Shown in pieces: positions 1,959-20,790 of a stretch of DNA of 64,000 nucleotides; within the stretch, counting starts at the first letter, position 1; each line of letters starts with the position of its first letter. Below the pieces are notes generated by a model. The model had not been told where the DNA came from and did no database searches. It worked only from the letters and a program-made list of their open reading frames with translations. The stretch comes from Jannaschia maritima. GTDB taxonomy: Bacteria; Pseudomonadota; Alphaproteobacteria; Rhodobacterales; Rhodobacteraceae. The DNA lies in assembly GCF_030973515.1 (NCBI RefSeq), contig NZ_JARGZA010000012.1, positions 41,494 to 105,493 of the forward strand. The letters are read 5' to 3'. The position numbers were made by a program, and so were the translations under genes.

Positions 1959-2180
1959 TTATAGGATTCCCAGACGCAACAACCATGACGGGTGCCCATG
2001 GCAGCATGTGCCGTCCGGGTCCACGCCCTCGCAACCGTCCGTCGCGATGCAGGCGCGATCGAATAGCATCGCCTCGATCTCGTCGGCCTCGGGCTGCGCC
2101 GTGGTCGGCTCGGGATAGGGTTTCCCGGTCAGCAGGTCGAACGGTGTGTCGTTTATAGCGCTGGACAGGTCCGAGGTCAT
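1959..2180 (-). CDS. Hypothetical protein (73 aa)
   Basis: Start at ATG 2180 overlaps the stop of the upstream gene (ATGA), so it is the last cistron of the ardC-proximal run. The product is acidic (LLTGKPYPEPTTAQPEADEIEAM) with a Cys-rich end (ATDGCEGVDPDGTCCHGHP), which might bind a metal. No family recognised. An ATG at 2216 would add 12 residues but lose the overlap-type start. Confidence 0.5.
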   Translation of the reverse strand: MTSDLSSAINDTPFDLLTGKPYPEPTTAQPEADEIEAMLFDRACIATDGCEGVDPDGTCCHGHPSWLLRLGIL

Positions 2181-2524
2181 GCCGCGCCCTCCGGCATCGT
2201 CAGCTCGGCCAGCCATGCGGGGCCGTGGGTGTTCCGCAGGCGGTGCAGGGCGGGTTCGGCCCGCGCCTCCGTCCAGTCGGCGCGCAGCGCGTCCTTCCAG
2301 CCGGGTCCGCGCAGGACCGCGAAGCGGGCGAGGGCGATCCGCTGCGAGGCGGTGAGCGTTCCCGCATGGGGAAGCTCGGCCAGGCGCGCGGCCTGCCGCA
2401 GGGCGGTCGTGCCCGCGTCGATCACTTCGGTTGCGGGCAGGTCGTGGAACGGACGCCAGAATGCGGCGCGGTCCTCGATGGTGGGGCCGACGCCCGCGCG
2501 CCGTTCCAGTTCGCCAAGGGTCAT
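2177..2524 (-). CDS. Hypothetical protein (115 aa) with HGPAWLAELT C-terminus
   Basis: Starts at ATG 2524, preceded by AGAGGT. An alpha-helical, Arg/Ala-rich small protein (MTLGELERRAGVG; ALRQAARLAELPHAG). Its end (THGPAWLAELTMPEG) resembles the C-terminus of the broken gene at 16548-17153 (SHGRHWLARVSLEDG), so the two may share a small domain found in this plasmid family. It lies 50 bp downstream of ardC on the same strand and is probably co-transcribed. Function unknown. Confidence 0.55.
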   Translation of the reverse strand: MTLGELERRAGVGPTIEDRAAFWRPFHDLPATEVIDAGTTALRQAARLAELPHAGTLTASQRIALARFAVLRGPGWKDALRADWTEARAEPALHRLRNTHGPAWLAELTMPEGAA

Positions 2525-2574
2525 GGGGGAACCTCTCAAGGTGGTGGGGGTGTCGGGGAAGGGCAGGGGGCCGC

Positions 2575-3477
2575 TCACGCGGCCGCCCTCCCGATGTCGG
2601 CGTCCGCCTCGGCCGAGGTCCGGGCGTTCAGGAAATCGACGGCCTTCTGGGCTTCGGCGGCGGCGCGGAAGATCACGTCGCGGTCCGCCTTCATCGCTTC
2701 GATCCAGCCTTCGACATAGGCGGCGGACTGGTCGAATTGCGGCTCGATCCCGAGTTGCATCCCGAGGAAACAGGCCCCGAGTTCGGCCACCAGTTCCTCG
2801 AAGGCGTAGGCTTTGCGGTCGGCGAACCGCTTGATCCGGTCCAGCCGCTTTTCCGCGCCGGTCCAGTGGCAAAGCTCGTGGGCGAGGGTGCCGTAATACC
2901 CGGCCGCGTCGTGGAAGGTCTCGACGGGCGGCATGTGGATATGATCCGACGACGGGCGGTAGTAGGCGCGCGGCTCGGCGCTGGTCTCGATCCGCGCGCC
3001 GGTGGCGGCGAACCATGCGTCCAGTTCCGGGTCGGCCTCCGTCCCGAGGTCGCGGGGCGGGTCCGGGCGGACGTAGTAGGCTTCGGGCAAACCCTCGATC
3101 TGGTCGGCGTTGAAGACGTTGTTGACCTTGGCGAAATGGACGCGGCGCTTGCCGTCCTCGGCGGCCTCGTCCTCCTTCTCGACCGACCCGTAATAGACCG
3201 ACTTCGCGGCCCGCTCGCCCTTGCGGACCATGCCGCCGAGTTCCTTAGCTTGGTTGAAGGTCATCCAGCGGTCGGAGGCGTAGCCTTTCACATGGGCCGC
3301 AGCCCATAGGATCAGGATGTTGACGCCCTTGTAGCCCTCGCCGGTATGACGCAACGGGAAGCCCGCGACGGTGCGCGCGCCGGTCCACGGCTGACGCCAC
3401 GGGGGCGTGCCCGCCTCGATCTGGGCGACGATCTGGTCGGTGACGTGCTGCCGGATGTCGAAACGCTCTTTTGCCAT
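2575..3477 (-). CDS. ardC: ArdC-family antirestriction protein with zincin metallopeptidase domain
   Basis: 300 aa, start ATG 3477. The N-terminal ~130 residues are the ssDNA-binding ArdC domain (RFDIRQHVTDQIVAQIEAGT, PWRQPW, NILILWAAAHVKGYASDRWM). The C-terminal half is a zincin-like peptidase with HELCHWTG (HExxH at 200-204) and a downstream ELVAELGACFLG helix giving the third metal ligand. ArdC proteins shield incoming plasmid DNA from type I restriction during conjugation. The gene sits 13 bp from copy 1 of the 505-bp repeat, which therefore forms its upstream leader. Family call is firm; target specificity is not known. Confidence 0.9.
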   Translation of the reverse strand: MAKERFDIRQHVTDQIVAQIEAGTPPWRQPWTGARTVAGFPLRHTGEGYKGVNILILWAAAHVKGYASDRWMTFNQAKELGGMVRKGERAAKSVYYGSVEKEDEAAEDGKRRVHFAKVNNVFNADQIEGLPEAYYVRPDPPRDLGTEADPELDAWFAATGARIETSAEPRAYYRPSSDHIHMPPVETFHDAAGYYGTLAHELCHWTGAEKRLDRIKRFADRKAYAFEELVAELGACFLGMQLGIEPQFDQSAAYVEGWIEAMKADRDVIFRAAAEAQKAVDFLNARTSAEADADIGRAAA

Positions 3478-3490
3478 GCTCTCGTTCCTT

Positions 3491-3995
3491 GTGGTGTTGG
3501 TGGGGTCTGTTGCCCCTGTGGGTCGGGTTTGGAGGCACGGCGCGTGGCGCCGCTGTCCTGCAAACCTGGCCTCGCCGAGAGCGGAGGGGGGCGAGACAAG
3601 GGGAGAGGGACGGGGGTGGTGCGGCCCGCAGGGCGTCAGCCCGAGGACACGGCCCCGGCCCGACCCCTTGTCCGAGGGGGGAGGCTGCGCCGCCCCCCTG
3701 ACCGGCGCAGCGGCGTTCGGCTTGCCCGAACCCCAAGCCCAAGAAGGATCCCGGTCGCGCGCGGCCACCGGCCGGGCCGATCCGGGCCGCCCCAGGGATC
3801 GTCACCCGCAAGGGCGGAGACGCGGCCCCGCGCCCGACCATGCCCCGCCCGCCAGGACGCGGCTCCGCAGGAGACGGGGCAGGGCGGAAGGGCCGGCGCG
3901 TCAGTGCAGGGCCGCCGGGGCAGGGAGGACGGGGGGACGCGGCTTCGGGAGGACCGAAGGGACGACTAGAGCCCGGTGCGCGTCAGCGCAGGGGC
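3491..3995. repeat. 505-bp perfect direct repeat, copy 1
   Basis: This segment appears identical to 12077-12581, by base-by-base comparison of both ends and by identical translations through the middle. The copies diverge abruptly at each edge (T versus C before the first base; A versus C after the last). It is non-coding, very GC-rich and contains stem-loops: 3538-3543 with 3547-3552, 3684-3692 with 3703-3711 (9 bp), and TTCGG 3716-3720 with CCGAA 3726-3730. It ends 13 bp before the ardC start on the minus strand. Probably a duplicated regulatory or leader element. Confidence 0.9.
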
Positions 3996-4005
3996 ACGGT
4001 CAGTT

Positions 4006-4311
4006 TTACTCGAGACGGTTCTCCGACTGGCGGCCTTCCTTCATCGGGACGGTCACGGGCTCGATTCCGAGGTCCGCGATGAAGGAGATGATCCCGTCGA
4101 TGGTCTTGATGGATCGCACCGTGTCCTGATCGCGGGTCGTGACGAGCTGGCGGGCGGTGCCGTCCGGCATCGCGATGGCGATGGTCCAGCTCCCGCGGAT
4201 GCCGCTTGTCCTTCGGTGCGGAGGGTCTTCGCAGGTGACGACGACGGTGCCGCCCTCGGCCAGCAAGCCGGGAATCTCTGCTTCGGTGAAGACGTTCTCG
4301 GGCATCGGCAC
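4006..4311 (-). CDS. Hypothetical protein (101 aa), paralog of 12893-13207
   Basis: A small mixed alpha/beta protein. The core (GGTVVVTCED, GSWTIAIAMPDGTARQLVTTRD, IKTIDGIISFIADLGI, VPMKEG) aligns along its length with the product of 12893-13207 (AIVVTCKE, GRWTVRLVFASGDTRQLVTQRD, FRTLNGIASLLAAAG, IPFAKG). The gene ends 10 bp from repeat copy 1, just as its paralog lies near copy 2, so gene and repeat may have been duplicated together and then the genes diverged. No function recognised; conserved single Cys in VTC. Confidence 0.65.
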   Translation of the reverse strand: MPMPENVFTEAEIPGLLAEGGTVVVTCEDPPHRRTSGIRGSWTIAIAMPDGTARQLVTTRDQDTVRSIKTIDGIISFIADLGIEPVTVPMKEGRQSENRLE

Positions 4312-4320
4312 GATGAGCGG

Positions 4321-5094
4321 CTACGGGCGCTGCGCCAGCAGTGCCGTCACCGTCTCCGTCGATCGCAGCCATGCGGCGATGTCCGGCCGTCGCCACTCGA
4401 CCAGCTTCAGCGCGGCGCGGAGGTCGGCGGCGAGGTCACGGGACAGCAGGGGTTCGTGATGGGCGATCCGGTTGCGGAAGTTGCGGATCGTCTGGATGCG
4501 GGCGCGGACCTGGCCGCGCCCGACCTGCACGGTCATCTGCGGGGGTAGTCCGGGGAACGCCTGTCGCAGGTGCGGATTCCACAGCACCGCGTCCTGCGCC
4601 GCGACGAAGAGGTGCTGCCAGAAGACGAACTTGATGTCGGCCACGACGCTCCCGGCATGTTGGTGCCGCCGCGCGAGCGACCGAAGGTCGTCTCGCATCC
4701 GGTAGTGCCCGACTATTGGGCGAAGGGATTGCTGGAAGGCGGGGCTGCGGTGCCAGTCCGCGCCATAGACGGCCGCGATCGCTTCGACCGCCCCGTTGCG
4801 GGCCGCCAGCTCGGCGAATTGGAGCGGGGTGTAGAAGGCCGCCGCGAGGTCGGTGTGCCAGCAGTAGAGGTCCATCGCCTTCACGCGGTCCCCGCCGGCC
4901 TGCCTGACATAGGTGGCGAAGCGCGGCGGCGAGAGGACGGCTTCGAGGTCTAGGAGGAGCTGGACGGGCGGGGTACGTGGCAAGGGCGGACGGGTCTCCG
5001 TGGACGGTGCGGGGCGGTCCCGAACCTTGACAGACGGGGCTCCGAAATGTAGGTAGGCCGGTGAATGACTGTTGGGGACCGGAGGTGGCGACAC
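4321..5094 (-). CDS. Abi-like (Abi_2/HEPN-type) protein
   Basis: Up to 257 aa. The body matches the Abi-like pattern I know: PPRFATYVRQAGGDRVKAM, LYCWHTDLAAAFYTPLQFAE, LAARNGAVEAI, and near the end IRNFRNRIAHHEPL, the R-x4-6-H motif expected of a HEPN ribonuclease. Such proteins mediate abortive infection by cleaving RNA. The first ~45 residues are low-complexity and Pro-rich, so the true start may be internal; no better ATG/GTG with a clear RBS was found. It ends 10 bp upstream of the small paralog gene on the same strand. Family call moderately firm. Confidence 0.65.
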   Translation of the reverse strand: MSPPPVPNSHSPAYLHFGAPSVKVRDRPAPSTETRPPLPRTPPVQLLLDLEAVLSPPRFATYVRQAGGDRVKAMDLYCWHTDLAAAFYTPLQFAELAARNGAVEAIAAVYGADWHRSPAFQQSLRPIVGHYRMRDDLRSLARRHQHAGSVVADIKFVFWQHLFVAAQDAVLWNPHLRQAFPGLPPQMTVQVGRGQVRARIQTIRNFRNRIAHHEPLLSRDLAADLRAALKLVEWRRPDIAAWLRSTETVTALLAQRP

Positions 5095-5117
5095 CTTCCC
5101 CCTTAGTCAACAGATCA

Positions 5118-5143
5118 AAGCCCGGTGCGAAAGCACCGGGCTT
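5118..5143. terminator. Strong bidirectional terminator
   Basis: Perfect 11-bp stem (5118-5128 with 5133-5143) closed by a GAAA tetraloop and followed by CTTCGTT. It sits after the small membrane protein gene (minus strand) and before the Abi-like gene. Confidence 0.8.
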
Positions 5144-5160
5144 CTTCGTTCGAGCTTTCG

Positions 5161-5475
5161 TCAGATGAAGAACGCGAGGATGGCGAAGACGAAGAGCGTC
5201 GCGCCGCCGGAAACGACGAGGAAGGTCGCAGCGCGCGAGGTCCGCGTCGTCAGGCCGTAATCCTCTATCGCGATCAGCAGGACGGCCAGCGCCGGCGCGA
5301 AGGCGGCGAGCGGACCGATGATGGCGGCGAAGATCGAGATGAGCGATCCGAGGGCGGCGGCCTGGCTGATGGCGACGCCGAAGCCGATGATCGCCGCGAT
5401 GGTCGAGATGGCGCCGGCCTGCCAGAGCAGGCGCGCGCGCGACGTCTCGTGAGCGGGCAGAAGATGGTCGAGCAT
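5161..5475 (-). CDS. Small integral membrane protein (104 aa)
   Basis: ATG 5475 follows AAAAGGACAC. After a short polar start (MLDHLLPAHETSRARL) come three hydrophobic segments, roughly residues 18-45, 46-75 and 83-104 (LVVSGGATLFVFAILAFF at the end). No family recognised. It is divergent from the SOS-controlled umuDC operon and ends at a strong terminator. Confidence 0.6.
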   Translation of the reverse strand: MLDHLLPAHETSRARLLWQAGAISTIAAIIGFGVAISQAAALGSLISIFAAIIGPLAAFAPALAVLLIAIEDYGLTTRTSRAATFLVVSGGATLFVFAILAFFI

Positions 5476-5568
5476 GGGTCGTGTCCTTTTATGGGGGTCT
5501 CCCGAGATGATACGACTGGCCCGTGAATGTCGGAAACGGTTCTCCACAGGGTTCGTGCGACGGATTTC

Positions 5569-5612
5569 TTGACAGAGAGGGCGGCGCTCGCAGATTAGAA
5601 CATAAACAGAAC
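5569..5612 (+). promoter_or_regulatory. umuDC promoter with alphaproteobacterial LexA (SOS) box
   Basis: A -35 TTGACA (5569-5574), 17-bp spacer and -10-like AGATTA (5592-5597) are followed at once by GAAC (5598-5601)-N7-GAAC (5609-5612), the direct-repeat SOS box known for alphaproteobacterial LexA. The box overlaps the transcription start region, so LexA would block initiation. It lies 15 bp before the umuD start. Confidence 0.8.
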
Positions 5613-5627
5613 ATCGGAAGGACTCGG

Positions 5628-6062
5628 ATGCCGCTCTATCGGATCGACACGCCCGTCATCGACCACGGCCAGCCGGTTCGCCTCGTGTCGCTGACCGTGA
5701 GTGCAGGGTTTCCGTCCCCGGCGGCCGACGATCTCGAAGACGAAATCGACCCGATCGCCTGGGTGGTGCGGCGGCCCAGCTCGACCTTCTGGTGGCGTGT
5801 CTCGGGCGACTGCCTCTGGGACGTGGGCATCCGCGACGGCGATCTGATCGCGGTGGACCGGGACGGCACTCGCCGCATCGGGCGCGCGGTCCTCGCCGTC
5901 GTGGACGGGCAGGTGACGGCGAAGATCCTTCGGCGTCGGAATGGGCGCTACTACCTCGCGCCTGCGAATGCGGGCGAGGACTTCCCCGACGTGGAACTGA
6001 CGCCGGACAGCGAGGTCTGGGGCGTGATCGCGGGCGTGGTCCGGCGCTACGAACTGGAATGA
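5628..6062 (+). CDS. umuD: UmuD-like S24 peptidase with Cys at the catalytic Ser position
   Basis: 144 aa; ATG 5628 with GGAAGGAC upstream. UmuD is the RecA-stimulated self-cleaving subunit of DNA polymerase V. The cleavage region [17 protein letters not shown] (Ala26-Gly27) matches the UmuD cleavage site well. The dyad is altered: the SGDS nucleophile motif reads SGDC with Cys62 (codon TGC), while the general base Lys99 is present (GQVTAKI) at exactly the 37-residue spacing of E. coli Ser60/Lys97. Self-cleavage could be slowed, lost or Cys-dependent. The gene overlaps umuC by 4 bp and is behind a LexA box. Confidence 0.9.
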
Positions 6063-7330
6063 GCCGCCAACCGATCGCGATCTCGGACAGCAAGAACTTC
6101 TACGTCAGCGCGGAACGGGTCTTCGATACGTCGCTGGCGAACGTGCCGGTGATCGTGCTGTCGAACAACGACGGCTGCGCCGTGGCGCGCAGCGACGAGG
6201 CAAAGGCGCTCGGGATCAAGATGGGCGACCCGCTCCATCTGATCCGCGACAAGGTGGAAGCGCATGGGGTCCGGGTCTTCAGCTCGAACTACACCCTCTA
6301 TGCGGACCTCTCCCGGCGGGTGGTGGACACCTATGCGGACTTCACGCCCCATGTCGAAATCTACTCGATAGATGAGTGCTTTCTGGACTTCATGGGGTTC
6401 AGGGACCGCGAGGCGCACGCGCGCGCCATGCGTGCGGCCGTGCGCCGCCGGGTCGGCATCCCAATCCGGGTCGGCATTGCCAGCTCGAAGACGCTGGCGA
6501 AGGCGGCGAACGAACTGGCGAAGAAGAACCCCGTCTTCGACGGCGTGCTGGACCTGATGGATGAGGACCTGGCCCGCTGGCTCCTGCCGCGCGTGCCGGT
6601 GGGCGACATTTGGGGGATCGGCCGACGCACGGAAGCGAAGCTGAAGGGCGTCGGCATCGCCACGGCGGCGGAGCTCCGCGACATGCCGTTGCGCCAGGCC
6701 CGCAAGCTCGGCACGGTCGTTCTCGAACGGACCGTTCTGGAATTGCAGGGCGAACCCTGCCTGTCGCTCGAAGAGGTGGAGCCGCAGCGCAAGGGCATGG
6801 CCGTGACACGCTCGGCGTCCGCGCCGATGACCGACTTCGACACGCTGTTCCAGGCGATCACGGCCCATGCGACCCGGGCGGCCGAGAAGCTGCGCCAGCA
6901 CGGGCTTGTGGCGGGGACGCTGACGGTGATCTTCCACACCAACAAGCACCGGCAGGACAGGCCGCAATGGTCGGCGGCGCGCTCCACGAAGCTGACGCCC
7001 ATGTCCTCGGACACGTTCGACCTCGTGGACGCCGCGCGCAGGTGCGCGCGGTCGGGCTGGCCGAAGGACGGGAAACCCTACGGCTTCACCAAGGCCGGCG
7101 TCATGCTCGATGATCTGCTGCCGAGCGAGGATCGGCCGAGGACGCTCTTCGACGTCATGCGGCCGAAGTCGGCGCAGCTCATGTCCGCGCTCGATCAGGT
7201 GAACGACCGTTTCGGGAAGAAGACGCTCGTGCTGGCGTCGGAAGGCATGAAGCGGCCCTGGGCGCTGCGCGCCGATCATCGGAGCCCGCGCTACACGACG
7301 CGCATCGAGGATCTTCCCGTGGTCCGCTGA
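6059..7330 (+). CDS. umuC: UmuC, Y-family translesion DNA polymerase V catalytic subunit
   Basis: 423 aa, the usual UmuC length. Palm acidic residues are present: Asp10 ([13 protein letters not shown]) and Asp105-Glu106 ([12 protein letters not shown]). Conserved [26 protein letters not shown] and [15 protein letters not shown] blocks follow. The helix-hairpin-helix region [19 protein letters not shown] is intact, and RPRTLFD near residue 360 may be the beta-clamp contact. Starts at ATG 6059 in a 4-bp overlap with umuD. With UmuD it performs SOS mutagenesis across lesions, a common plasmid cargo. Everything needed for catalysis appears intact. Confidence 0.95.
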
Positions 7331-7336
7331 CGCGGA

Positions 7337-7400
7337 CGGGGGACTGTCTGCCCCCCGGCGCTTGCGTGCCGTCCCCCGAGGATATTTCCGGGAAGATGAA
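7337..7400 (+). repeat. Dispersed GC-rich element, copy A
   Basis: This ~64-bp stretch after umuC matches 20069-20131 closely: a GGGG..CTGTCTGCCCCC hairpin half, then CCCCCGAGGATATTTC and GGGAAGATGAA. The pattern is one I remember at 3' ends of genes in Rhodobacteraceae genomes, though I cannot verify that here. It may work as a terminator or mRNA 3'-end element. Confidence 0.6.
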
Positions 7401-7575
7401 TGGGAGGGGCTAGCGTTTCTTCGCGGCCCCGATGAGTGCAGCGAAACCGAAAAGGGCGATGAAGAGGGTGGCGACGACCATCCCGCCTCGTCCCGCGCGG
7501 TCAAGGCGTGGGCGTGCGGCGATCTGGGCGCTTCGGTGGCATATCCCGAGGATACGCGACGAATGTGAGAGGAAG

Positions 7576-7600
7576 GCGAAAGCCCCCGAGGGGGCTTCGC
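7576..7600. terminator. Hairpin terminator
   Basis: AAGCCCCC (7580-7587) pairs with GGGGGCTT (7590-7597), and the flanks GCG and CGC partly extend the stem. It lies just past the stop of the small minus-strand gene at 7614-7775 and downstream of umuC. Confidence 0.5.
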
Positions 7601-7613
7601 CCTGCGGCCGGAC

Positions 7614-7775: not shown

Positions 7776-8062
7776 GGCTGTCTCCTGTTGGTGAATGAAC
7801 AGGGCTGGCCGACACGGCGATGAAGGGGGGCGGTCAACACGCGCGCAGCGCCCCGAAGGGCTTGATGTTGACGGCCTCCCGCGCCGTGTCAGCTTGCCCG
7901 ACTGTCGTTCACTGATGGGGACCGCTCTACCTTCGGAGGGGGTCCGTTCGCCGGTGGGGAAACCGTGATCTTCGGACCGTCCGCCCTGGCGGGGTGCGGG
8001 GCGTCAGAATGCCATGTTCGGCGTCTATCGATGCTTGACGTCAGACGGAAAAGGACACCGAC

Positions 8063-9377: not shown

Positions 9378-10718
9378 TTATCCGGGCTTTTGGATGACGC
9401 TGTATCCGGTCGGCACGTTCGTTCCCGAGGCGGCGAAGCTGCCCACGGGAAGGTCGCGCCATTCGCCCAGGTCGAAGCCGTGATCGTAATGGGCCGACGC
9501 CGGAAGGATACAGGCCAGCCGTCCGCCGGGGCGCAGGAAGCGCAGGGCGTGATCGACATGCAGCCGGTAGTGCCGACCGTAGAAGGGCGGGTTCATCACC
9601 ACGGCGTCGAACCACGGATCGGGGGCGACCTGAAGGAAGTTGGCGCGCATGACCGCGTGCCCCTTCGCGCGGGCCTGCTCGGCCCGTCCGCCGTCATACT
9701 CGATGCCGGTGAGGCGGAGCGGGTCGCGCGGCCCCTGATACTTGCGGGGTTCATGCCAGCGGGCCAGCACGTCGAGCATCCGACCGTCGCCGCAGGACGG
9801 CTCTAGGATCGTCTCGCCCCCGCGCAGCGGCAGGGCGGCGATGACGGTCTCGGCCACGCTGTCGGGCGTCCAGTAGAATTGCAGGTCGCGCGCGACGTCC
9901 GTGCTGGGCCGCTTGGCCTCGTCCTCGCTCGGCGCGTCTGGCAGGACCTCGCCGTAGAACTCGGCCAGGGCGCGGTTGATGTCGAGACGCCCTTGCGCGT
10001 CGAAGACGATATGCGCGTTCCCGTTCTTGAACCGCTTGATCCGTCCGCCGCAGAAATCGGCCTCGCCGTGCCGCTTGGCCTCGTCCATGACGGCGCGCAG
10101 CTCGGCCCACTCGTAGCGGGGTTCTCCCCGGTAGAGGCGGAGCGCATTAAGTGTATCGCGCACCCGTTCGTTGCCCCAGCCCTCGCCGTAATCCGAGACG
10201 TGCCCGACGATGATGCGCTTTGGCAGGCCCTCGACGCCGATCTTCACCTTGGAATGGCTACGATAGGCCGGGTCCAAGTCGCAGAAGCATTCCGCCAGCC
10301 CTTTGAGGACGTGGAAGCGCGGGGACAGGAGGAAGTCTCCGAAGAGGTCGCGGATCGCCTCGATGGTGAAGGACGGCGGGTTCTCAAGGCGAAGCTCGAT
10401 GGCCTTCCGGTCCTTCGCGCTGGCGACGTCCTCGATCCGCAAGCCCTCGCGGACGTGCCGCCATGCGGATTTGAGAAGGGCGGCGCGCACGTCGCGTTCG
10501 TAGAGGCTGGGCGAGCGCGAGAAGATCTGACCTCCGAACGTGCCGCCGATGCACCCGGCCATGCCGATTGCGGTCTCCGCCTCCTCGAAGGCGGCGATGG
10601 CGTCGGGGATCGCCTCCGCCTTGGCGTCGTATTCGGCGACGATCTCCGAGATGCTGCGGCGCAGGGCGGGGGCCGCGTGGACGGCCTCCCCCTCTCCGAT
10701 CTGGGCGTAGCTGGTCAT
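9378..10718 (-). CDS. DUF4942 protein with C-terminal DNA adenine-type methyltransferase domain
   Basis: 446 aa, start ATG 10718 overlapping the preceding gene. Residues ~90-260 fit the DUF4942 pattern (SAWRHVREGLRIEDVASAKD; IRDLFGDFLLSPRFHVLKGL). From ~residue 275 there is a class I SAM methyltransferase: ILEPSCGDGRMLDVLARW is motif I and VVMNPPFYGRHY is the NPPF catalytic motif of N6-adenine or related amino methylases. Such proteins are common on alphaproteobacterial plasmids and phages and could protect plasmid DNA from restriction. The specificity is unknown. Confidence 0.8.
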   Translation of the reverse strand: MTSYAQIGEGEAVHAAPALRRSISEIVAEYDAKAEAIPDAIAAFEEAETAIGMAGCIGGTFGGQIFSRSPSLYERDVRAALLKSAWRHVREGLRIEDVASAKDRKAIELRLENPPSFTIEAIRDLFGDFLLSPRFHVLKGLAECFCDLDPAYRSHSKVKIGVEGLPKRIIVGHVSDYGEGWGNERVRDTLNALRLYRGEPRYEWAELRAVMDEAKRHGEADFCGGRIKRFKNGNAHIVFDAQGRLDINRALAEFYGEVLPDAPSEDEAKRPSTDVARDLQFYWTPDSVAETVIAALPLRGGETILEPSCGDGRMLDVLARWHEPRKYQGPRDPLRLTGIEYDGGRAEQARAKGHAVMRANFLQVAPDPWFDAVVMNPPFYGRHYRLHVDHALRFLRPGGRLACILPASAHYDHGFDLGEWRDLPVGSFAASGTNVPTGYSVIQKPG

Positions 10719-11668: not shown

Positions 11669-12061
11669 TCAGTAGTCGGACGGGAACATGATGGTCAGGA
11701 CGCGCCGCGTGACCCGCTTGTTGGCTGGGTCGGGGGAGGCCCATTCATAGCCTTCGTCGTAGAGGTCGATCTTCCAGAACAGCCGCTCGCCCTCGACGGT
11801 CACGGTTCCAAAGGTGCGATCCTTGTAGGGGTCGTTGTCCTCGGTGAACGTGGTGTCCTGGGCGACGGCGCGGGTCGCGGCCAACTGGAAGTCCGGCCCC
11901 CGCGCGGCCACGGCGGCGGTCATCACATGCTTGCCCTTGGGGGTGAGGGAGTCGGCCCCCGCGATCATGGCCTTGCGGAACTGGTCGTTCTGCTGCGCGA
12001 CGGCCATCGTCTCCATCGCGGCCGCGATTTCGCCCCCGGTCATCTCCATCATGTTCGGCAT
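11669..12061 (-). CDS. DUF3768-family protein
   Basis: 130 aa, ATG 12061, with GAAGGAGAGACC upstream. The second half carries the DUF3768 signature as I recall it: TFTEDNDPYKDRTFGTVTVEG, LFWKIDLYDEGYEWASPDPA, VTRRVLTIMFPSDY. The function of the family is unknown; it is typical of alphaproteobacterial plasmids. The gene begins 15 bp from copy 2 of the 505-bp repeat, exactly the arrangement of ardC with copy 1. Confidence 0.8.
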   Translation of the reverse strand: MPNMMEMTGGEIAAAMETMAVAQQNDQFRKAMIAGADSLTPKGKHVMTAAVAARGPDFQLAATRAVAQDTTFTEDNDPYKDRTFGTVTVEGERLFWKIDLYDEGYEWASPDPANKRVTRRVLTIMFPSDY

Positions 12062-12076
12062 CCCGGTCTCTCCTTC

Positions 12077-12581
12077 GTGGTGTTGGTGGGGTCTGTTGCC
12101 CCTGTGGGTCGGGTTTGGAGGCACGGCGCGTGGCGCCGCTGTCCTGCAAACCTGGCCTCGCCGAGAGCGGAGGGGGGCGAGACAAGGGGAGAGGGACGGG
12201 GGTGGTGCGGCCCGCAGGGCGTCAGCCCGAGGACACGGCCCCGGCCCGACCCCTTGTCCGAGGGGGGAGGCTGCGCCGCCCCCCTGACCGGCGCAGCGGC
12301 GTTCGGCTTGCCCGAACCCCAAGCCCAAGAAGGATCCCGGTCGCGCGCGGCCACCGGCCGGGCCGATCCGGGCCGCCCCAGGGATCGTCACCCGCAAGGG
12401 CGGAGACGCGGCCCCGCGCCCGACCATGCCCCGCCCGCCAGGACGCGGCTCCGCAGGAGACGGGGCAGGGCGGAAGGGCCGGCGCGTCAGTGCAGGGCCG
12501 CCGGGGCAGGGAGGACGGGGGGACGCGGCTTCGGGAGGACCGAAGGGACGACTAGAGCCCGGTGCGCGTCAGCGCAGGGGC
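12077..12581. repeat. 505-bp perfect direct repeat, copy 2
   Basis: Second copy of 3491-3995, same orientation, 8586 bp away. It abuts the 5' end of the DUF3768 gene (minus strand). Flanking sequence on both sides is unrelated to copy 1. The lack of substitutions suggests either recent duplication or ongoing gene conversion. The direct repeats could also recombine and delete the umuDC-methyltransferase segment between them. Confidence 0.9.
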
Positions 12582-12649
12582 CTTGATGTGGGATTCTTCG
12601 CGGCCGACTTTCATCCCGAGGCAGGGCCGAACGACGAAGGAACTACCGC

Positions 12650-13643: not shown

Positions 13644-14000
13644 TCACTGGTCCTGCTGCGCCTTGCGGGCCTGCCGGCGGCGCTCGTCGTGGCTGAAGTT
13701 GTCGAAATCCTCGGCCGCCATCGTGATCCCGTATTCGGTCCCGCCTTCCTTGTTCTCCCAGCTCGTCTGGCGGACGGTGCCGAAGGCCCGGACGATGTCG
13801 CCCGGCTGGGTGTTTTCGCGCACCCACTTGGCGACGTTCTCGTTGAAGATCGTGACCTCGTTCCAGTAGGGCTTCGACTGGAATTCGCCCTTGTCGTCCT
13901 TGCGGCCGTATTCGGCGGCGACGCTGACCCGGAGGGTGTTGCCGACTTCCTTGTGCTTCCCGACCCGGCCGATGATCTCGAATTGTGCGAAGGTTCTCAT
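13644..14000 (-). CDS. ssb: Single-stranded DNA-binding protein
   Basis: 118 aa with an OB fold: MRTFAQFEIIGRVGKH, TLRVSVAAEYGRK, YWNEVTIFNENVAKWVRENT, GDIVRAFGTVRQ, GTEYGITMAAEDFDNF. It lacks the acidic DDIPF-type tail of housekeeping SSB, ending in a charged RRRQARKAQQDQ, so it may not recruit host SSB partners. Plasmid SSBs protect incoming single strands and are a hallmark of leading regions. It starts at ATG 14000 with GAGGAGACACACC upstream. Confidence 0.9.
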   Translation of the reverse strand: MRTFAQFEIIGRVGKHKEVGNTLRVSVAAEYGRKDDKGEFQSKPYWNEVTIFNENVAKWVRENTQPGDIVRAFGTVRQTSWENKEGGTEYGITMAAEDFDNFSHDERRRQARKAQQDQ

Positions 14001-14945: not shown

Positions 14946-15266
14946 ATGCCTGGGCGGCCCGCCTCGGCGTCCATCGCGGCGTGGTCCGCGCGCCAGCCGG
15001 GAGGTCGCACGGTGACGATCGCGCACCGCCGCGTCGTCGCCGCGCTGGCGCTGTCCCGGTCCGATGAGCCACCTCTGCGTCATCCCCGCGAAAAGCTCCT
15101 GACACTACTCAAGGAAGCGGAGCCGGGGACGGTTTTCGAGCGCGCTTCCGGCCAACTCGAACTGTTCCCGGAGGTTGAGGCGGACGAGCTGTGCCAACTC
15201 GATAGGATGGCGTCGCGGGTCGGACTGGAAGACGACGCCCTGCGATCACCACCGTCGTCAGGGTGA
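14946..15266 (+). CDS. Possible hypothetical protein
   Basis: An open frame of up to 106 codons. The second half reads like protein (REKLLTLLKEAEPGTVFERA, GQLELFPEVEADELCQLDRM), the first half less so, so the true start may be internal. Its end overlaps the end of the minus-strand gene at 15258. No family, weak RBS. Confidence 0.35.
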   Translation: MPGRPASASIAAWSARQPGGRTVTIAHRRVVAALALSRSDEPPLRHPREKLLTLLKEAEPGTVFERASGQLELFPEVEADELCQLDRMASRVGLEDDALRSPPSSG

Positions 15267-15779
15267 CGCGATTTCGCGGCGCGCGATCCGAAGGATTTCT
15301 TCGTATCCGTCGGAGAAGCACTTCGATTCCATGGCAACAATGTTAGGGGGGAGGCCATGTTCATCCACCGCCTCCAAGGCCGTTCCGATTGACAGAAATG
15401 CGCGGTCAAACTCGGGCGACACGATTAGGCGGCTTGCATCGAACGTCTGTTTAGCCGTGCTCCACGCCGCCCATGCAGCGCGGGCGCGCTCGCGGCTCTC
15501 CTTCGACCCGTGATAACCCTCGGGTCCGTGTTCATGATTGTAGTATCCATCGGCATCTCGACCTGCCTCAGCGGCGGCCTTCTTCAAGTGCGCGACGATT
15601 TCGGAATACTGACTGCGCCGTAGATCCCAGATGCGATCTTCATGGTGGCGTTCCTTGGCAGTCTTCGCGCGGTTTCGCTCGATCACCCACGTTGTCGCCA
15701 AAGTCAGACCCGAACCGATGACCAGTGTGAGGATGGTTAGAAGGGGGCCGATCCACGGCGCGGTCGTCTGGTCTTCCAT
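15258..15779 (-). CDS. Membrane-anchored hypothetical protein (173 aa)
   Basis: ATG 15779 is chosen because TTGGAGGCC lies upstream and the protein then starts with a signal-anchor: MEDQTTAPWIGPLLTILTL followed by VIGSGLTLATTWVIERNRAK. The rest is charged and helical (RRSQYSEIVAHLKKAAAEAG; AFLSIGTALEAVDEHGLPPN), probably cytoplasmic. Organisation recalls small anchored coiled-coil proteins of unknown role found near defence genes. Not recognised. Confidence 0.65.
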   Translation of the reverse strand: MEDQTTAPWIGPLLTILTLVIGSGLTLATTWVIERNRAKTAKERHHEDRIWDLRRSQYSEIVAHLKKAAAEAGRDADGYYNHEHGPEGYHGSKESRERARAAWAAWSTAKQTFDASRLIVSPEFDRAFLSIGTALEAVDEHGLPPNIVAMESKCFSDGYEEILRIARREIASP

Positions 15780-15832
15780 GATGGCCTCCAATCGGATCGC
15801 CACGCATAGGTCCGAACATCGTCTCGCGGAAG

Positions 15833-15858
15833 AAAAAAGGCCCCGCCGGAGCAGGGCC
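15833..15858 (-). terminator. Rho-independent terminator
   Basis: On the minus strand GGCCC (15858-15854) pairs with GGGCC (15843-15839) around a GC loop and is followed by six T (15838-15833). It follows the minus operon whose last gene ends at 15921. Confidence 0.6.
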
Positions 15859-15920
15859 GAGGAATTCCTCACCACAAGGAATAGGGGAAGCGCGGCGGCC
15901 TGGCCGTCCGCGCGGTAAGT

Positions 15921-16283
15921 CTATGTGCCACCCGCGCCGTGGATCGCCAACCAGTTCGGTCCCGGCTCGATCGCGTCGGCTTCGCGTTCTAGGACGGCCA
16001 GCCGATTGTTGATCGCCACGATGAGGGTGGTCTGCGGCGCAGCCGCTCGGTGCCCCCGGAGGGGTTGGCACAGCCCGGACGGGCCGCGCAGGAAGAGGTC
16101 GCTGACCCTGCGTAGCAGGTCCGCGTCGGTCTCGCGCGCGATCATCGCGACCGGCAGGGCGGCAACGTGGCAGGTCCACGGCTCGACGCGCCGAGTGGCT
16201 CGTCTGCGCCCGATGATATGGGTCGCGACCATCCATTCGGTGAGGTCGTGCCAGTCGAGCCGGGTGCCGGGCGTGCGGGTCAT
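15921..16283 (-). CDS. Hypothetical protein (120 aa)
   Basis: Start ATG 16283 overlaps the previous stop by 4 bp. Sequence: RLDWHDLTEWMVATHIIGRR, VAMIARETDADLLRRVSDLF, TLIVAINNRLAVLEREADAI; a soluble helical protein. Last gene of the operon beginning near 17153, followed by a terminator. Not recognised. Confidence 0.6.
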   Translation of the reverse strand: MTRTPGTRLDWHDLTEWMVATHIIGRRRATRRVEPWTCHVAALPVAMIARETDADLLRRVSDLFLRGPSGLCQPLRGHRAAAPQTTLIVAINNRLAVLEREADAIEPGPNWLAIHGAGGT

Positions 16284-16555
16284 ATCAGGACTCCTTGGCG
16301 GGGATCGGCCTCGGGGCGCGGGCGGATGCCGACGCGGCCTCGCGGATCGATGGTCCAGCCGTCCGCCGTGCGCTCGACGCTCGCGTCCGGCCCATGACGC
16401 TTGATGAACACGCGGTCGGCTTCAGCCTTGCGCGCGAGATGCAGGTCCGATGCCCGGTGGCCCGAGGGTCGGGCGCACCACGATCCGGGCCGTGCGCTGC
16501 AAACGGGGCAGGCGACGGCGAGGACCGGGTGACGATGGGCGGTGAAATCAGACAT
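16280..16555 (-). CDS. Small zinc-binding protein of the phage/plasmid zinc-finger type
   Basis: 91 aa. Residues 14-44 hold ACPVCSARPGSWCARPSGHR and then ASDLHLARKAEAD, the C-x2-C-x(8)-C...H pattern of short DNA-binding zinc proteins seen in actinophages and alphaproteobacterial plasmids. The C-terminal part (DGWTIDPRGRVGIRPR) is basic. Overlaps both neighbours, so translation is coupled. Exact target unknown. Confidence 0.65.
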   Translation of the reverse strand: MSDFTAHRHPVLAVACPVCSARPGSWCARPSGHRASDLHLARKAEADRVFIKRHGPDASVERTADGWTIDPRGRVGIRPRPEADPRQGVLI

Positions 16556-17153
16556 GGCAGCGCCCGTCCTCCAGGGAGACGCGCGCCAGCCAGTGCCGCC
16601 CGTGCGACACGCGGAGGCTCGTCAGCCATCCGGGCTCGCGATCCGCGTCCCAGAGGGCCGCGACGGCGATCCGCCATGCCGGACCGTGCGCGGCGGCGAA
16701 GGCCCGCAAGCGGTCGAGCTGGTCGGTTCGCACCGTGAGCCGGTCGTAGCGCCGTCCCGAGGGGTCCGTCCGGCTCGCATAGAGCGGGTCGGCCAAGTCC
16801 ACGCGGCCCCGGTCGATCTGGGTCAGGAAGTCGAGAAGATAGCTCGGATCGGCGGGGAAGGGCGCGCGGTCCCACGCGCGGCGGATCAGGGTCCGCTCGC
16901 GGAGGGGCCGGGCCGCGATGGCGCGGCGGGCGCGGTGCCAGTTCGCCGCACGCCGGTCGCGATCCTCCTACTGGGTCCGGTCCCAGACGACGGCGCGGCG
17001 CCGCATCACCTCGTCCTCGCTCGGTTGCGCGGCTGCGATCTGGGCGCTGAACAGGGGCAGGGCCTCGCGTTCGGCGGCCTGCTTGCGGCGGAGATGCCCG
17101 CGCTTGCGGGCCGTGTCGGTGAAGGGGGTTCGGGGGTATCGCTTGCAGCGCAT
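16548..17153 (-). pseudogene. Gene split by an in-frame amber codon
   Basis: A coding frame starts at ATG 17153 (MRCKRYPRTPFTDTARKRGH) and hits TAG at 16968-16970 after 61 residues (..VVWDRTQ). The same frame stays open for another 140 codons (EDRDRRAANWHRARRAIAAR, PFPADPSYLLDFLTQIDRG, LRAFAAAHGPAWRIAVAALW, GWLTSLRVSHGRHWLARVSL), with codon use like its neighbours. The downstream part has no ATG/GTG/TTG until GTG 16802. The simplest reading is a recent nonsense mutation of a ~200-aa protein; amber readthrough is an alternative. C-terminus resembles the protein of 2177-2524. Confidence 0.55.
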
Positions 17154-17218
17154 GATCCGGCTCCTCGGGGTTGCTGGGGATCGGGGAGGGGGCGGGCTCA
17201 CGGCCTGCCCCGCCCTTG

Positions 17219-19069
17219 TCAGGCCATGCCCTCGGGGAGCCAGTTCGCGATGCGGTCCCGCTGCGCCTTGGTCAGGCCGTGCGCCTCGCGGGTCGCCTCG
17301 TCGTTGAACAGGTCGTGCAGCTTCCCGACCTTCTCGCCCTTCTTCAACTTCGCGAAGGTCGTGGCGGTCGGGTGATCCTCCGCGAGGTCGAGCAAGTCCT
17401 GCCACAGGGCATTGAGGTAGGGACCGCCCACCCGACCGAAGAAGTTCTCCCCGGTGGGGGCCCACACGTCGCGGGTGCGCCGCCCGGTGGCCTTGTCGAT
17501 CATCGCGCCCAACTCGGCGTCGGGGACCGTCAACAGGCTGGCGAGGTAGCCGTTCAGGGCCTCCATGACCTTCTTGTCGCCCCGCTTGCGGAAGGCGGCG
17601 AAGTCCTTCCCGACCTCCGACCCGAACCCCGCCTCGTAGCGCTCGGCGATGGACGACAGGCGCTTGTCGAGCGTGTAGCCCGTCTCGGTCTCGGGCGCGT
17701 TCGCAGGCGGGTTCACGGTCAGGCCGAAGGCATAGCCGTAGCCCATCTTGCCGGACAGGTGGAACGCCAGCAGGTGCAGGGCCAGCTTCGGGTCGGTCAG
17801 GAGCGCGGCCTGCCGCGCGCCCTTCTCGATCCGGTCCAAGTCGCCCCGCAGCTTGTCCGAGATAGGCGACTTCGGGGCGGTCTCGCCCGTGGTGCCGTGC
17901 TGGGACGCGGCGAGGATGCCCGCCGCCATCGCCTCCTTGCGGTCCTCGGGCTTCACCAGCCCCTCGGCCACCTTGATCGTCCCGCCGCGCGCGACGTAGA
18001 GGACGGCCCCCGCCACGGCCTTCTGCTCGTCGGTGAACGCGCCGTCCGCCTTGGCCTGCAACGCCTCCAACTCGGCTTCGCCGTCCTCGTCCAGCACGTC
18101 GCCGTTCGCCAGTTCGGCCAACTCGTCATACCGCTCGGACTCGGCCTCCGACAGGTCGCCCTCCACCGGATAGACCCGACCGAATTTGCGGTCCTCGGTG
18201 AAGCCGTAGGGCAGGTAATCCTCGGGATGGGTCTCGACCCATTTCCAGCCGTGGGCCTCCGCGAAGTCGTCTGCCGCCTTCGCCAGCTTCGCCGCGAACA
18301 ACTCGTCCAGAAGGGCGGTGTCATCGAACAGGGTCTCGTCCGCGAACAGGTCGCCCCCAATGCGCCCCCCGGCCTCCTTGTAGGCGTCCACGCCCACGAA
18401 GGCCGCGCGCCGGTCGCTCTCCTTGACCGCGCCGGGGCGCAGCATCGCCTTGATTTGGTGATCGGACAGCGCGTAGCGCCCGTTCGCCGCGTCCTCCACG
18501 ATCCGGGTCAGCACCTCGATCATCAGCTTCTCGTCCTGCCCCACGGTGAAGGCGGCGGCATGGGACAAGCTGATCTGACCGGCCTTCAAGGCGTCCAGCA
18601 CGGGATCGGGCAGGCCCGCCAGCGCCAGGCGGCGATAGACGTGCTTCTCGGTGACGCCGTAGGCCACGGAAATGTCGGCCACGCTCACGCCGCGCCGATC
18701 CATCGCGCCGTAGTCGCGGATTTCGTCGGCGGGGTGCAGAGCCTCGCGTTGGCCGTTCTCCGAGGTCGCCCACAGACGGGCCGTCTCGGCATCCGGCGCG
18801 ATCTGCACGGCGACGGTCTGGAACCGGGGGTCGTCCTGCAGGAGGGCCAGCGCGCGCAGCCGCCGCCCGCCCGCGACGACGCCCACGCGGGTGCCGTCCT
18901 CGTCGCGCAGGCCCCCGAGGTTCTGGATCAGGCCCACCTTGCGGATGTTCTCGGCCAGCACGGCGACGGCGCTTTCGCTGACGACGGTGCGGGGGTTGAG
19001 GTCGGACAGGTAGAGGTCCGCGAAGGGCACGGACTCGATGGTGGCGGCGATCTTGGTCTGGTCGGTCAT
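17219..19069 (-). CDS. Large ParB/KorB-like partition/nuclease family protein
   Basis: 616 aa, ATG 19069 with AAGGAACGTAAACCC upstream. The ParB N-terminal domain covers residues ~12-110: LYLSDLNPRTVVSESAVAVL, VGLIQNLGGLRDEDG, VVAGGRRLRALALLQ (the GxRRxxA box). A helix-turn-helix follows (VSVADISVAYGVTEKHVYRR, LALAGLPDPVLDALKAGQ). The ~400-residue C-terminal extension is acidic and ends in a helical DNA-binding-like tail. This long type, without parA, is the leading-region ParB-like protein of conjugative plasmids rather than a segregation ParB. No parA is nearby. Its leader (19690-20060) is hairpin-rich. Confidence 0.85.
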   Translation of the reverse strand: MTDQTKIAATIESVPFADLYLSDLNPRTVVSESAVAVLAENIRKVGLIQNLGGLRDEDGTRVGVVAGGRRLRALALLQDDPRFQTVAVQIAPDAETARLWATSENGQREALHPADEIRDYGAMDRRGVSVADISVAYGVTEKHVYRRLALAGLPDPVLDALKAGQISLSHAAAFTVGQDEKLMIEVLTRIVEDAANGRYALSDHQIKAMLRPGAVKESDRRAAFVGVDAYKEAGGRIGGDLFADETLFDDTALLDELFAAKLAKAADDFAEAHGWKWVETHPEDYLPYGFTEDRKFGRVYPVEGDLSEAESERYDELAELANGDVLDEDGEAELEALQAKADGAFTDEQKAVAGAVLYVARGGTIKVAEGLVKPEDRKEAMAAGILAASQHGTTGETAPKSPISDKLRGDLDRIEKGARQAALLTDPKLALHLLAFHLSGKMGYGYAFGLTVNPPANAPETETGYTLDKRLSSIAERYEAGFGSEVGKDFAAFRKRGDKKVMEALNGYLASLLTVPDAELGAMIDKATGRRTRDVWAPTGENFFGRVGGPYLNALWQDLLDLAEDHPTATTFAKLKKGEKVGKLHDLFNDEATREAHGLTKAQRDRIANWLPEGMA

Positions 19070-19135
19070 GGGTTTACGTTCCTTGTCGGTGGTGAGGTTG
19101 GGGAGTGCCCCGCCCGTGGGGGACGGGGCGCGGGG

Positions 19136-19354
19136 CTATGCGCCCTCTTGGTCGGTCCAGTCGCTCGCCCAATGGTCCAGCATGGCGACGACGCGCCCTT
19201 GCGGATCGGTCAGGGTGAGGTCCGGGACGATCTGCGCCTGCCGGTGGTGATCGCGGCCCAGCATTCGCAGGACGTCCTCGCTCTCGGCATGGACTTCCTC
19301 GTTCGTGGTCAGGTCCGGGTGGTCGATGGTGAGCGTCCAAGCGGCCCGCCTCAT
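19136..19354 (-). CDS. Hypothetical protein (72 aa)
   Basis: ATG 19354 overlaps the DUF1419 stop by 4 bp. Sequence TLTIDHPDLTTNEEVHAESE, VPDLTLTDPQGRVVAMLDHW is acidic and strand-rich. Lies between DUF1419 and the ParB-like gene on the same strand. Not recognised. Confidence 0.6.
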   Translation of the reverse strand: MRRAAWTLTIDHPDLTTNEEVHAESEDVLRMLGRDHHRQAQIVPDLTLTDPQGRVVAMLDHWASDWTDQEGA

Positions 19355-19689
19355 GCGACCGGCTCCAGCTTGCGGACATGAGCGTTGAACGCCGCCACGG
19401 TGGCGAGGAAGTCGGATTGCGACCCGTGGCGGACGGCGAGGCAGAAGGCCCGCTTGCCGACCATGATCCACGCATCCGACAGGTTCTCGGTCGCGGCCTC
19501 GGACATGACGAACGCGCTGCCGGTGAAGTTCACCGGGGGCAGGATCGACAGGAAGTAGTCCCACATCTCGGGGGTGGTCTCGAACCACTGGCCCGCGCTG
19601 CGCTGGTGCGCTTCGTAGCCACGGTTCAACAGGGCGAAGGTCGCGGTGCGGTCGGCCACGCCCTCCCCTATGTTCTGGAAATCATCCAT
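19351..19689 (-). CDS. DUF1419-family protein
   Basis: 112 aa, start ATG 19689 with AAAGGAAGAAAG upstream. Matches the family pattern I know from rhizobial plasmids: GVADRTATFALLNRGYEAHQ, GQWFETTPEMWDYFLSILPP, GSAFVMSEAATENLSDAWIM. Function of the family is unknown. First gene of the ParB-like operon. Confidence 0.75.
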   Translation of the reverse strand: MDDFQNIGEGVADRTATFALLNRGYEAHQRSAGQWFETTPEMWDYFLSILPPVNFTGSAFVMSEAATENLSDAWIMVGKRAFCLAVRHGSQSDFLATVAAFNAHVRKLEPVA

Positions 19690-20060
19690 CTTTCTTCCTT
19701 TATGGTGAGCCGCGTTCTCGATCTTGGTGCCGAAAATTGGGGCAGGTGGTCAGGCGAGGATCGCGAAGCGGCCCTCTCCTTACCGCTTGCCCGTCGGCGA
19801 GACCGGGAGGGGGGCCCGCGCCAGGTTCCCGACAAGGAAGGGGGGGAGGGGGATCACCCGGCGACGCAGCCCGACCGAAGGGAGGGACCGTCGTTGGGGA
19901 CACCCTCCCTGACGCCGATCGGGAGCCTTGCGTGGGGGAACCGGCGGTTCCCAGGCGGACGACCCGAAGGGGAGGACCATCAAGGGCAGGGGCGTTCGGC
20001 TTGTCCGAATCCCGCTGCCTGTCGCGGACCCCGTTCGCGGGGGCCTCCTAAGCCTCTCCC
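19690..20060. other. Hairpin-rich leader of the DUF1419-parB operon
   Basis: About 370 bp without a gene. Stem-loops: AGGGAGGG 19879-19886 with CCCTCCCT 19903-19910; GGGAACC 19936-19942 with GGTTCCC 19946-19952; TTCGG 19995-19999 with CCGAA 20005-20009. The last hairpin and its flanks (GCGTTCGGCTTGtCCGAA) match the 505-bp repeats at 3713-3730, so this leader appears related to them though mostly diverged. Confidence 0.5.
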
Positions 20061-20068
20061 GCCACGGC

Positions 20069-20131
20069 GAGGGGGCTGTCTGCCCCCGGGCGCTGATGCG
20101 CCTCCCCCGAGGATATTTCGGGGAAGATGAA
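20069..20131 (+). repeat. Dispersed GC-rich element, copy B
   Basis: Matches 7337-7400 with few differences (GGGGGCTGTCTGCCCCC, CTCCCCCGAGGATATTTC, GGGGAAGATGA). No gene ends just before it on the plus strand here, so it may have arrived by insertion or mark a lost gene. Confidence 0.55.
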
Positions 20132-20375
20132 GCCGCAGGGGATCCGCCCCGGTCATTGGACGTGCCACGTCGTTCTGATACTATGGGGATGCGGAACAGG
20201 CAGGGATGCCGATGGCCGTGGAAGGTGAAGGGGCGTGAGCCCGATCACGTGAGAGCCGGGGACGTCGTGCTCTGGTTCCCCTCACCCGAAGGGGAACGAC
20301 ATGGGACAGGATTTGAGCTGGTCGGTGCAGGCCGTTCTCTGACCGCCTGCGACGCGCGAGGCCCTTCGGTCCCGG

Positions 20376-20579
20376 GTGTCGTTCCGGCGTTGGATCATGC
20401 TGACGGTCATTTCCGTCTCGATGGTCGGGATGGTCCTGTTCGCCGGATCCTTCTGGATGTCGTTCTACGCGGCGTCCGGGGGCCAGGCCCTTCCGATCTT
20501 CGTCGGCATGGTCGTCGTCGCGATCTACTACGCGGCCGTCACAACGGTCCTCATGTTGGGCATTCGCCCGATCGAATGA
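20376..20579 (+). CDS. Small membrane protein (67 aa)
   Basis: GTG start at 20376, or ATG 20397 eight residues in. Two hydrophobic helices: IMLTVISVSMVGMVLFAGSF and LPIFVGMVVVAIYYAAVTTV. Ends at 20579, 36 bp before the diverged repeat copy. No clear RBS and no family, so the call rests on the membrane pattern. Confidence 0.45.
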   Translation: MSFRRWIMLTVISVSMVGMVLFAGSFWMSFYAASGGQALPIFVGMVVVAIYYAAVTTVLMLGIRPIE

Positions 20580-20614
20580 CTGGCGCAGCCGGACGGCCAG
20601 CGGCGGCTTGGGCG

Positions 20615-20790
20615 AGGATCGTCACCCGGAAGGCGGAGACACGCGCTCTTGGCCGACCATGACCCGCCCGCATCGAGATGGCTCCGCAGGAGACGGCGCG
20701 GGGCGGCAGGCCGGCGCCGCAGGCGGCGGACCGCCGGGTCAGGGAGGACGGGGGCGCGGGGCTCCGGGAGGCGGAGCCGACTAGAGCCGG
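20615..20790. repeat. Diverged partial copy of the 505-bp repeat
   Basis: Aligns with 3796-3970 of copy 1 with small gaps, roughly three-quarters identical by eye: GGATCGTCACCCG, GGCGGAGAC, CCGACCATG, GGCTCCGCAGGAGACGG, GTCAGGGAGGACGGGG and GACTAGAGCC are kept. Only the distal half of the repeat is present here; a trace of the proximal half is near 19993-20010, about 600 bp away, as if the element were split by inserted DNA. Confidence 0.65.

Follow-up and report, generated by a model that had tools for sequence, protein, structure and literature searches.

To our knowledge, early gene expression from single-stranded DNA (ssDNA) is documented mainly for F-like enterobacterial plasmids. Their single-strand promoter Frpo folds so that its -35 and -10 hexamers become double-stranded, is stimulated by SSB in transcription or priming, and also makes the primer for the second strand. 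In IncN plasmids, where one repressor controls all of the leading-region genes, CUP is a repeated promoter with an operator for an ArdK/ArdR-type regulator, and the sso/ssoA of rolling-circle plasmids consists of several ssDNA hairpins, whose stems vary while their loop sequences are conserved. Here, we compare with these systems the repeated leaders of a 64,000-nt stretch of Jannaschia maritima DNA (hereafter, the window), which spans bases 41494-105493, the right part, of the 105,493-bp contig C3 in a 3.67-Mb genome of 45 contigs. As judged from the sequence, these leaders belong to a family of hairpin elements with a fold maintained on the gene's template strand, which is also the predicted transferred strand (T-strand), and there is in our view about an even chance that they act as ssDNA promoters for ardC, DUF3768 and DUF1419-parB.

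The Frpo/ssi sites of F-type plasmids (PMC11541004) share with these leaders their leading-region location, their repetition and their position 5' of SSB, anti-restriction and ParB-like genes facing the origin of transfer (oriT). The F gene order (SSB, DUF905, ParB-like, PsiB) is a close parallel to the block in the window. In both systems, the genes behind the site have the T-strand (here, predicted) as template, structure is kept on that strand, and the same test favours its folding. In contrast, three F leaders gave no blastn match at E<=0.01 to 25 elements of our family, and instead of a conserved -35/-10 we find a noncoding chain, about 300 nt long, of GC-rich hairpins with conserved loops and compensating stems, ending in an invariant distal hairpin. 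The host and relaxase also differ (Rhodobacterales with a MobA/VirD2-type relaxase here, Enterobacterales with MOBF for Frpo). The earlier note on this DNA had proposed an undescribed alphaproteobacterial counterpart of Frpo, and this holds for the geometry and the T-strand fold, although not for the sequence or the hexamers. Our best reading is that of an undescribed Rhodobacterales family that appears Frpo-like in geometry and strand constraint, rather than a member of Frpo. The literature listings contained no description of this element or of alphaproteobacterial ssDNA promoters, and the available part of PMC11541004 makes no mention of Alphaproteobacteria.

A hairpin family in the leaders of Rhodobacterales plasmids

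The repeated leaders that the earlier note had seen before ardC and DUF3768 are confirmed, as positions 3481-4000 recur at 12071-12581 (511 bp at 99.8%, and 100% across the ungapped parts), directly 5' of both genes. Element 1 (3478-4000, plus strand, where the strand given for the leader elements is the one whose fold is conserved in the family) precedes ardC (2575-3477, minus strand), whose gene model contains an ArdC N-domain (Pfam ArdcN, 3.9e-37) and a zincin-like metallopeptidase (MPTase-PolyVal, 1.7e-47). Its beta loop lies at 3616-3652 (plus), flanked by arms at 3595-3603 (GACAAGGGG) and 3664-3672 (CCCCTTGTC) that pair with each other, and its invariant distal hairpin, M4 (GGCGTTCGGCTTGNCCGAAYCCC), was found by motif match at 3712-3734 (plus). 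The near-identical element 2 (12062-12585, plus; M4 at 12298-12320) precedes the DUF3768 gene (11669-12061, minus; Pfam DUF3768, 2.4e-27). When the own genome was searched with the 531-bp leader, four places were recovered at E<=0.001, all of them on C3. As the leader of element 1 also matches 45 plasmid records, its repetition is more than chance.

Element 3 (19690-20060, plus), the DUF1419-parB leader, precedes the DUF1419 gene (19351-19689, minus; Pfam DUF1419, 1e-10). It has the invariant distal hairpin (M4 at 19991-20013) and the general build in common with elements 1 and 2, but its central loop is of the different, alpha type (19848-19902). The earlier note had described this third leader as a diverged copy; it is indeed of the same family, while the 79% repeat is a separate copy of just the distal tail that elements 1 and 2 share, found by sequence match 600 bp further out (20616-20788, plus). 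The third-leader query matched 51 records, although 13 of 50 among the matches listed hit only a common repeat at the query edge. Copies of CCCCGAGGATATTTC..GGGAAGATGAA are found at 7341-7402 and 20070-20132, the second of which also matches otherwise unrelated plasmids, and the copy lying there accounts for some of the apparent similarity upstream of DUF1419.

The build of the element was deduced from an alignment with 22 copies from six plasmids. The chain starts with a ribosome-binding-site complement, followed by small hairpins, a long central stem with an alpha or a beta loop, a further hairpin and, finally, GGCGTTCGGCTTGNCCGAAYCCC. The arms of the further hairpin covary (GGGAACC/GGTTCCC, GGGGACC/GGTCCCC, GGGGGGaGGC/GCCgCCCCCC). 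The distal hairpin, by which the sites were located, is more uniform than the ribosome-binding-site end, whose strict pattern is present in 69 of 130 sites. The arms around the loops pair far above swapped arms, with scores of 33.0 versus 19.4 (sd 8.9) for alpha and 28.9 versus 13.5 (sd 7.4) for beta, from a common set of 66 motifs, and one pair of the alpha module occurs as all four Watson-Crick types among 27 sequences. The beta alignment was made without 17 lone motifs and the alpha alignment without one truncated copy (locus L103). The arm-pairing test was used because RNAalifold gave a poor structure on the beta modules, the variable stems of which were left unaligned by MAFFT. No match to the 4227 Rfam families was obtained for the window at the gathering threshold, nor for two leaders at E<=1.

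The distal-hairpin pattern occurs in at least 113 stretches of the genome collection, as well as in nine stretches of viral contigs. By title and genus name, 108 of 113 among the matches listed are from Rhodobacterales, the exceptions being L026, L048, L063, L079 and L107. Allowing at most one mismatch, there are six copies on Thioclava p4, five each on Phaeobacter (P.) inhibens pP92_f and P. piscinae pP36_d, three on Roseovarius pTHAF9_d, two on Leisingera M658 and one on Salipiger pTPRO6.

Alpha and beta loops share one place in different copies of the element, as seen in the central stems of L012, L013, L014 and L015, and cargo lies between direct copies of the element. Together, these two observations suggest that the elements may have a second role, as points of recombination. 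In addition, chromosome 1 of Luteovulum azotoformans holds an alpha-loop copy (L103:5294-5347) in which unrelated DNA stands in place of the left stem arm, looking as if the end of a recombination or integration event fell at the loop.

Position relative to genes, relaxase and predicted oriT

The position survey covered 157 sites in 129 loci, and 124 of the sites have a called gene on the left. This gene points away from the element in 115 of the 124 sites and towards it in nine, with a median of 308 nt from the start codon to the invariant hairpin; four of the 157 sites fall inside a called gene. Behind the element (within 660 nt), 102 distinct proteins were found, including ArdC-N (32), DUF3768 (19), DUF3560 (4), DUF1419 (4) and DUF2958 (2), while each of the others belongs to a single family (transposases and transporters are among these) or has no match. 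The lone motifs mostly obey the same rule, as 16 of 17 lie on the template strand, 5' of a gene.

These positions bear on a possible role as a single-strand initiation site (sso/ssi-like), in which the folded plus strand would start the synthesis of the complementary strand by primase or by an RNA-polymerase primer, and the genes would be served indirectly. Multiple hairpins with conserved loops on variable stems, a constraint on the predicted T-strand and several copies per plasmid (two to six on five of the six plasmid records, one on the sixth) would all suit such a site. However, a pure priming site would not need the steady distance 5' of the gene start, and the presence of several copies, every one linked to the start of a gene, is unlike sso/ssoA. 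We hold this explanation to be unlikely.

The orientation relative to the relaxase was compared in the 26 genomes or records behind 28 loci, which were searched for the hairpin and the relaxase family, together with our own contig. From the 73 sites found, 15 on contigs without a relaxase match were left uncounted, and 27 contigs hold both. The element is opposite in strand to the relaxase gene in 58 of 61 sites on these 27 contigs, 24 of which agree throughout. Likewise, 58 of 61 sites are no more than 30 kb away on the predicted leading side, with distances wrapped where the contig was taken as circular. The family is thus intergenic, with compensating stems around conserved loops, stands 5' of gene starts in a fixed orientation to the relaxase, and is constrained on the template strand, as detailed in the next section.

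Contig C3 is probably a circular plasmid, because 25 31-mers are common to the outer 3 kb of both of its ends (a 55-bp overlap if contiguous), and it is likely conjugative with its own conjugation genes. To the left of the window, there are VirB4-, VirB10- (TrbI) and VirB11-like proteins, a coupling protein, a leftward MobA/VirD2-type relaxase (C3:36922-39267), a helix-turn-helix accessory protein that weakly matches a NikA-like protein, and a rightward VirC1-like ATPase. The gene order is broadly alike in six relatives fetched by this relaxase (mirrored in L009): type IV secretion system, coupling protein, relaxase, accessory protein, a gap, ParA-like and small rightward genes, and then leftward genes from ardC onward. 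The gap before the ParA/VirC1-like gene contains TATTTCCTGCCA, which is read rightwards and is kept in six of seven aligned plasmids, L010 being the exception. In five of the six it has CCC in front of it, and an inverted repeat comes after it. The RK2 nic site is CCTATCCTG followed by C, and we take TATTTCCTGCCA to resemble it. Because this nic-like motif reads rightwards and the relaxase lies to the left of the block, the plus strand is predicted to be the T-strand and the block to be the leading region, transferred early; the location of the relaxase on the other side of the predicted oriT agrees with this assignment. The leading region claimed by the earlier note is thereby supported, with relaxase, accessory protein and coupling protein all to the left of the block. 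The opposite placement, an oriT to the right of it, was also considered, and the predicted oriT lies to the left.

The strand that folds

A G.T (G.U) wobble is tolerated on the strand that folds, while the complementary strand reads A.C at the same place. With wobbles forbidden in the folding, 77 non-redundant elements gave 69 G.T versus 22 A.C contexts on the template strand, compared with 26:24 in shuffles (raw counts) and 23:21 in the 190 nt upstream. Beyond dinucleotide shuffles, the template strand was also stabler than the transcript strand (-4.2 kcal/mol, 57/77, p 3e-6), in contrast to the upstream control (38/77, p 0.27). These two tests were used because the plain energy difference was distrusted: the G+T content is higher in the template strand, and the control region upstream leaned alike (47/77, p 0.03, RNA parameters). 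A first free helix count, although noisy, went in the same direction (232 vs 131; shuffles 120 vs 100). Two adjacent pairs of the alpha module form G.T in 24 and 23 of the 27 sequences, and in all remaining sequences these pairs are Watson-Crick.

Both strands are strongly structured (DNA z -3.9 for the template and -3.6 for the transcript, against -1.8 upstream, in 30 of the 77 elements sampled). This structure on either strand, together with the location 5' of the start codon and the covarying pairs, which in one alignment are as many or more in the message sense, could fit a riboswitch-, attenuator- or antiterminator-like structure in the 5' untranslated RNA of the leftward messages. Nevertheless, its wobbles would read A.C rather than G.U in the message sense, the consensus energy of the alpha module is -21.4 in that sense versus -33.6 in the template sense, and Rfam returned no match. 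As the wobble pairs fall on the template strand, a structured mRNA leader was rejected as the principal explanation; already disfavoured, it is in our estimation very improbable. On balance, the pattern indicates a structural constraint on the template strand and not on an mRNA leader.

The preference of folding for one strand was also tested on known plasmids. The F ssb leader, taken as holding the known Frpo, gave a z of -2.5, and its copy (89%), located upstream of position 64032, gave -4.1. Five other F stretches gave +0.8 (upstream-53784), -1.2 (klcA leader), -0.8 (hok leader) and -0.9 and -1.5 (genic pieces). Of the leaders of five leftward genes of R46 (IncN), the four that bear the repeats gave +0.9, -0.1, -0.2 and -0.6 and that of ardK gave +0.2, while the stbA leader gave +0.8. 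Thus, the fold that the earlier note expected on the plus strand is conserved there by the wobble and shuffle tests, and the strand test separates the F Frpo from IncN leaders.

This comparison also bears on a CUP-like, double-stranded regulatory repeat, whose operators would let one repressor control all of the leading-region genes. The layout of R46 is very alike, with a leftward relaxase, rightward stability (stb) genes and then leftward ard/ccg genes with direct repeats, and muc as well. Here too, as with the CUP of R46/pKM101, long direct repeats precede several leftward genes of the leading region, with three such leaders in the window and six on Thioclava p4, and the element follows its gene even against the T-strand. 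In contrast, the template-strand bias of our elements is absent from the R46 leaders, four of which gave no blastn match at E<=0.01 to the 25 elements, and the conserved parts are hairpin loops on freely varying stems, unlike linear operators. We consider such a regulatory repeat to be distinctly unlikely.

Several observations weigh against a T-strand promoter. Among isolated non-Watson-Crick pairs in alpha and beta stems scoring >=20, the template strand has G.T in 32 contexts and A.C in four, but part of this excess is composition, because the swapped-arm control was itself skewed 826:304 to G.T; the lone beta hairpins by themselves gave three G.T and no A.C, from few pairs. The G.T excess could also stem from C-to-T damage on a strand that is often single-stranded, rather than from selection. 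In RNAalifold, changes on both sides affected 4 of 22 pairs in the template sense versus 6 of 20 in the message sense, a run in which the outer stem happened to align better. In the window, elements 1 and 2 singly show a weak strand preference with non-significant z (-1.4 and -1.0), in contrast to element 3 (-3.09). Three of the 61 M4 sites are inverted, each 3.0-3.5 kb from the relaxase. Similarly, a lone beta hairpin found by motif on the minus strand (633-703), 5' of rightward genes and beside the predicted oriT, does not fit a model based on the T-strand only. Its conserved loop is enclosed by a long stem, in which a single mismatch (C.T in the motif sense) is common to most relatives listed. 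The hairpin lies on the strand that the donor is predicted to keep, and recurs beside the predicted oriT in L009, L012, L013 and L015, among others. Because of this oriT-side hairpin and the three inverted M4 sites, the motif is seen to be oriented as its gene is, without keeping strictly to the T-strand. The inverted hairpins would either act for the strand that the donor retains, or point to a function partly independent of the T-strand. Finally, no sigma70-like -35/-10 was found conserved or enriched in the element or just upstream of it, on either strand.

Promoter search, gene content and proposed function

A score at least that of the F Frpo was reached by 7 of 77 elements on the T-strand and 5 of 77 on the transcript strand, compared with 33 of 231 shuffles, in a scan that is weak, since F's own Frpo, whose best site is on the T-strand, scores only 8.7. 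A canonical sigma70 promoter was rejected, as none was found within the element or immediately upstream. The double-stranded -35/-10 that the earlier note suggested looking for in the plus-strand fold was not recovered as a conserved feature, leaving the specific mechanism of Frpo without support. The conserved loops are the obvious candidates for recognition of the fold by the polymerase.

A divergent or antisense RNA, running rightward from each leader, folding in the plus sense and regulating the gene, would likewise explain the plus-sense G.T pairs. Nevertheless, few terminator-like T runs follow the distal hairpin (7 of 154 sites have TTTT within 40 nt of it), no intrinsic terminator-like site was found in the two window stretches scanned, and no conserved promoter was found on the strand of such an RNA, making this RNA a highly doubtful candidate.

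Between 2.1 and 20.8 kb, 24 of the 31 genes called by the codon model are leftward and seven rightward (11.2 versus 3.0 kb of coding sequence). The leftward majority noticed by the earlier note is thus real, although "nearly all" overstates it, as the rightward genes include a pair of umuD-like and umuC-like gene models (5628-7330, plus; Pfam Peptidase_S24 and IMS) and five others. Many anti-defence islands are reported to be flanked by umu-like genes (PMC11541004). Besides ArdC, DUF3768 and DUF1419, the Pfam searches confirmed the other gene types named earlier, all on the minus strand: a DUF4942 gene with a methyltransferase-like end (9378-10718; DUF4942, 1e-25), an SSB gene (13644-14000; SSB, 1e-8) and a long ParB-like protein of 616 aa (17219-19069; HTH_ParB 2.4e-6, ParB_N 6.4e-5). 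To the right of the leading block, at 24060-34524, there is a GmrSD-type restriction gene together with a type I hsdR-hsdS-hsdM set.

Returning to the ssDNA-promoter reading, the plus strand would enter the recipient single-stranded and the leader would fold on entry. The folded leader would then recruit the host RNA polymerase, via its conserved loops or together with a plasmid protein, and ardC, DUF3768 and DUF1419-parB would be transcribed before the incoming strand becomes double-stranded. The product would be a message, and could also be a second-strand primer, as for Frpo. More tentatively, and with less confidence than we have in the promoter role itself, Rhodobacterales could possess an independent, modular class of ssDNA promoters, in which interchangeable alpha and beta loops, instead of a -35/-10 duplex, would mark the T-strand, the oriT-side hairpin doing likewise for the retained strand of the donor. 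In that case, ArdC and its neighbours would be made before the plasmid is double-stranded.

If this is true, the wobble pairs, which show the folding strand, would provide a computational test to tell ssDNA promoters from ordinary repeated leaders on other plasmids. The existence of a family unrelated in sequence, with the same geometry and strand constraint, would suggest that expression from ssDNA evolved more than once, and it would offer a sequence handle on the control of the leading region in the marine Roseobacter group.

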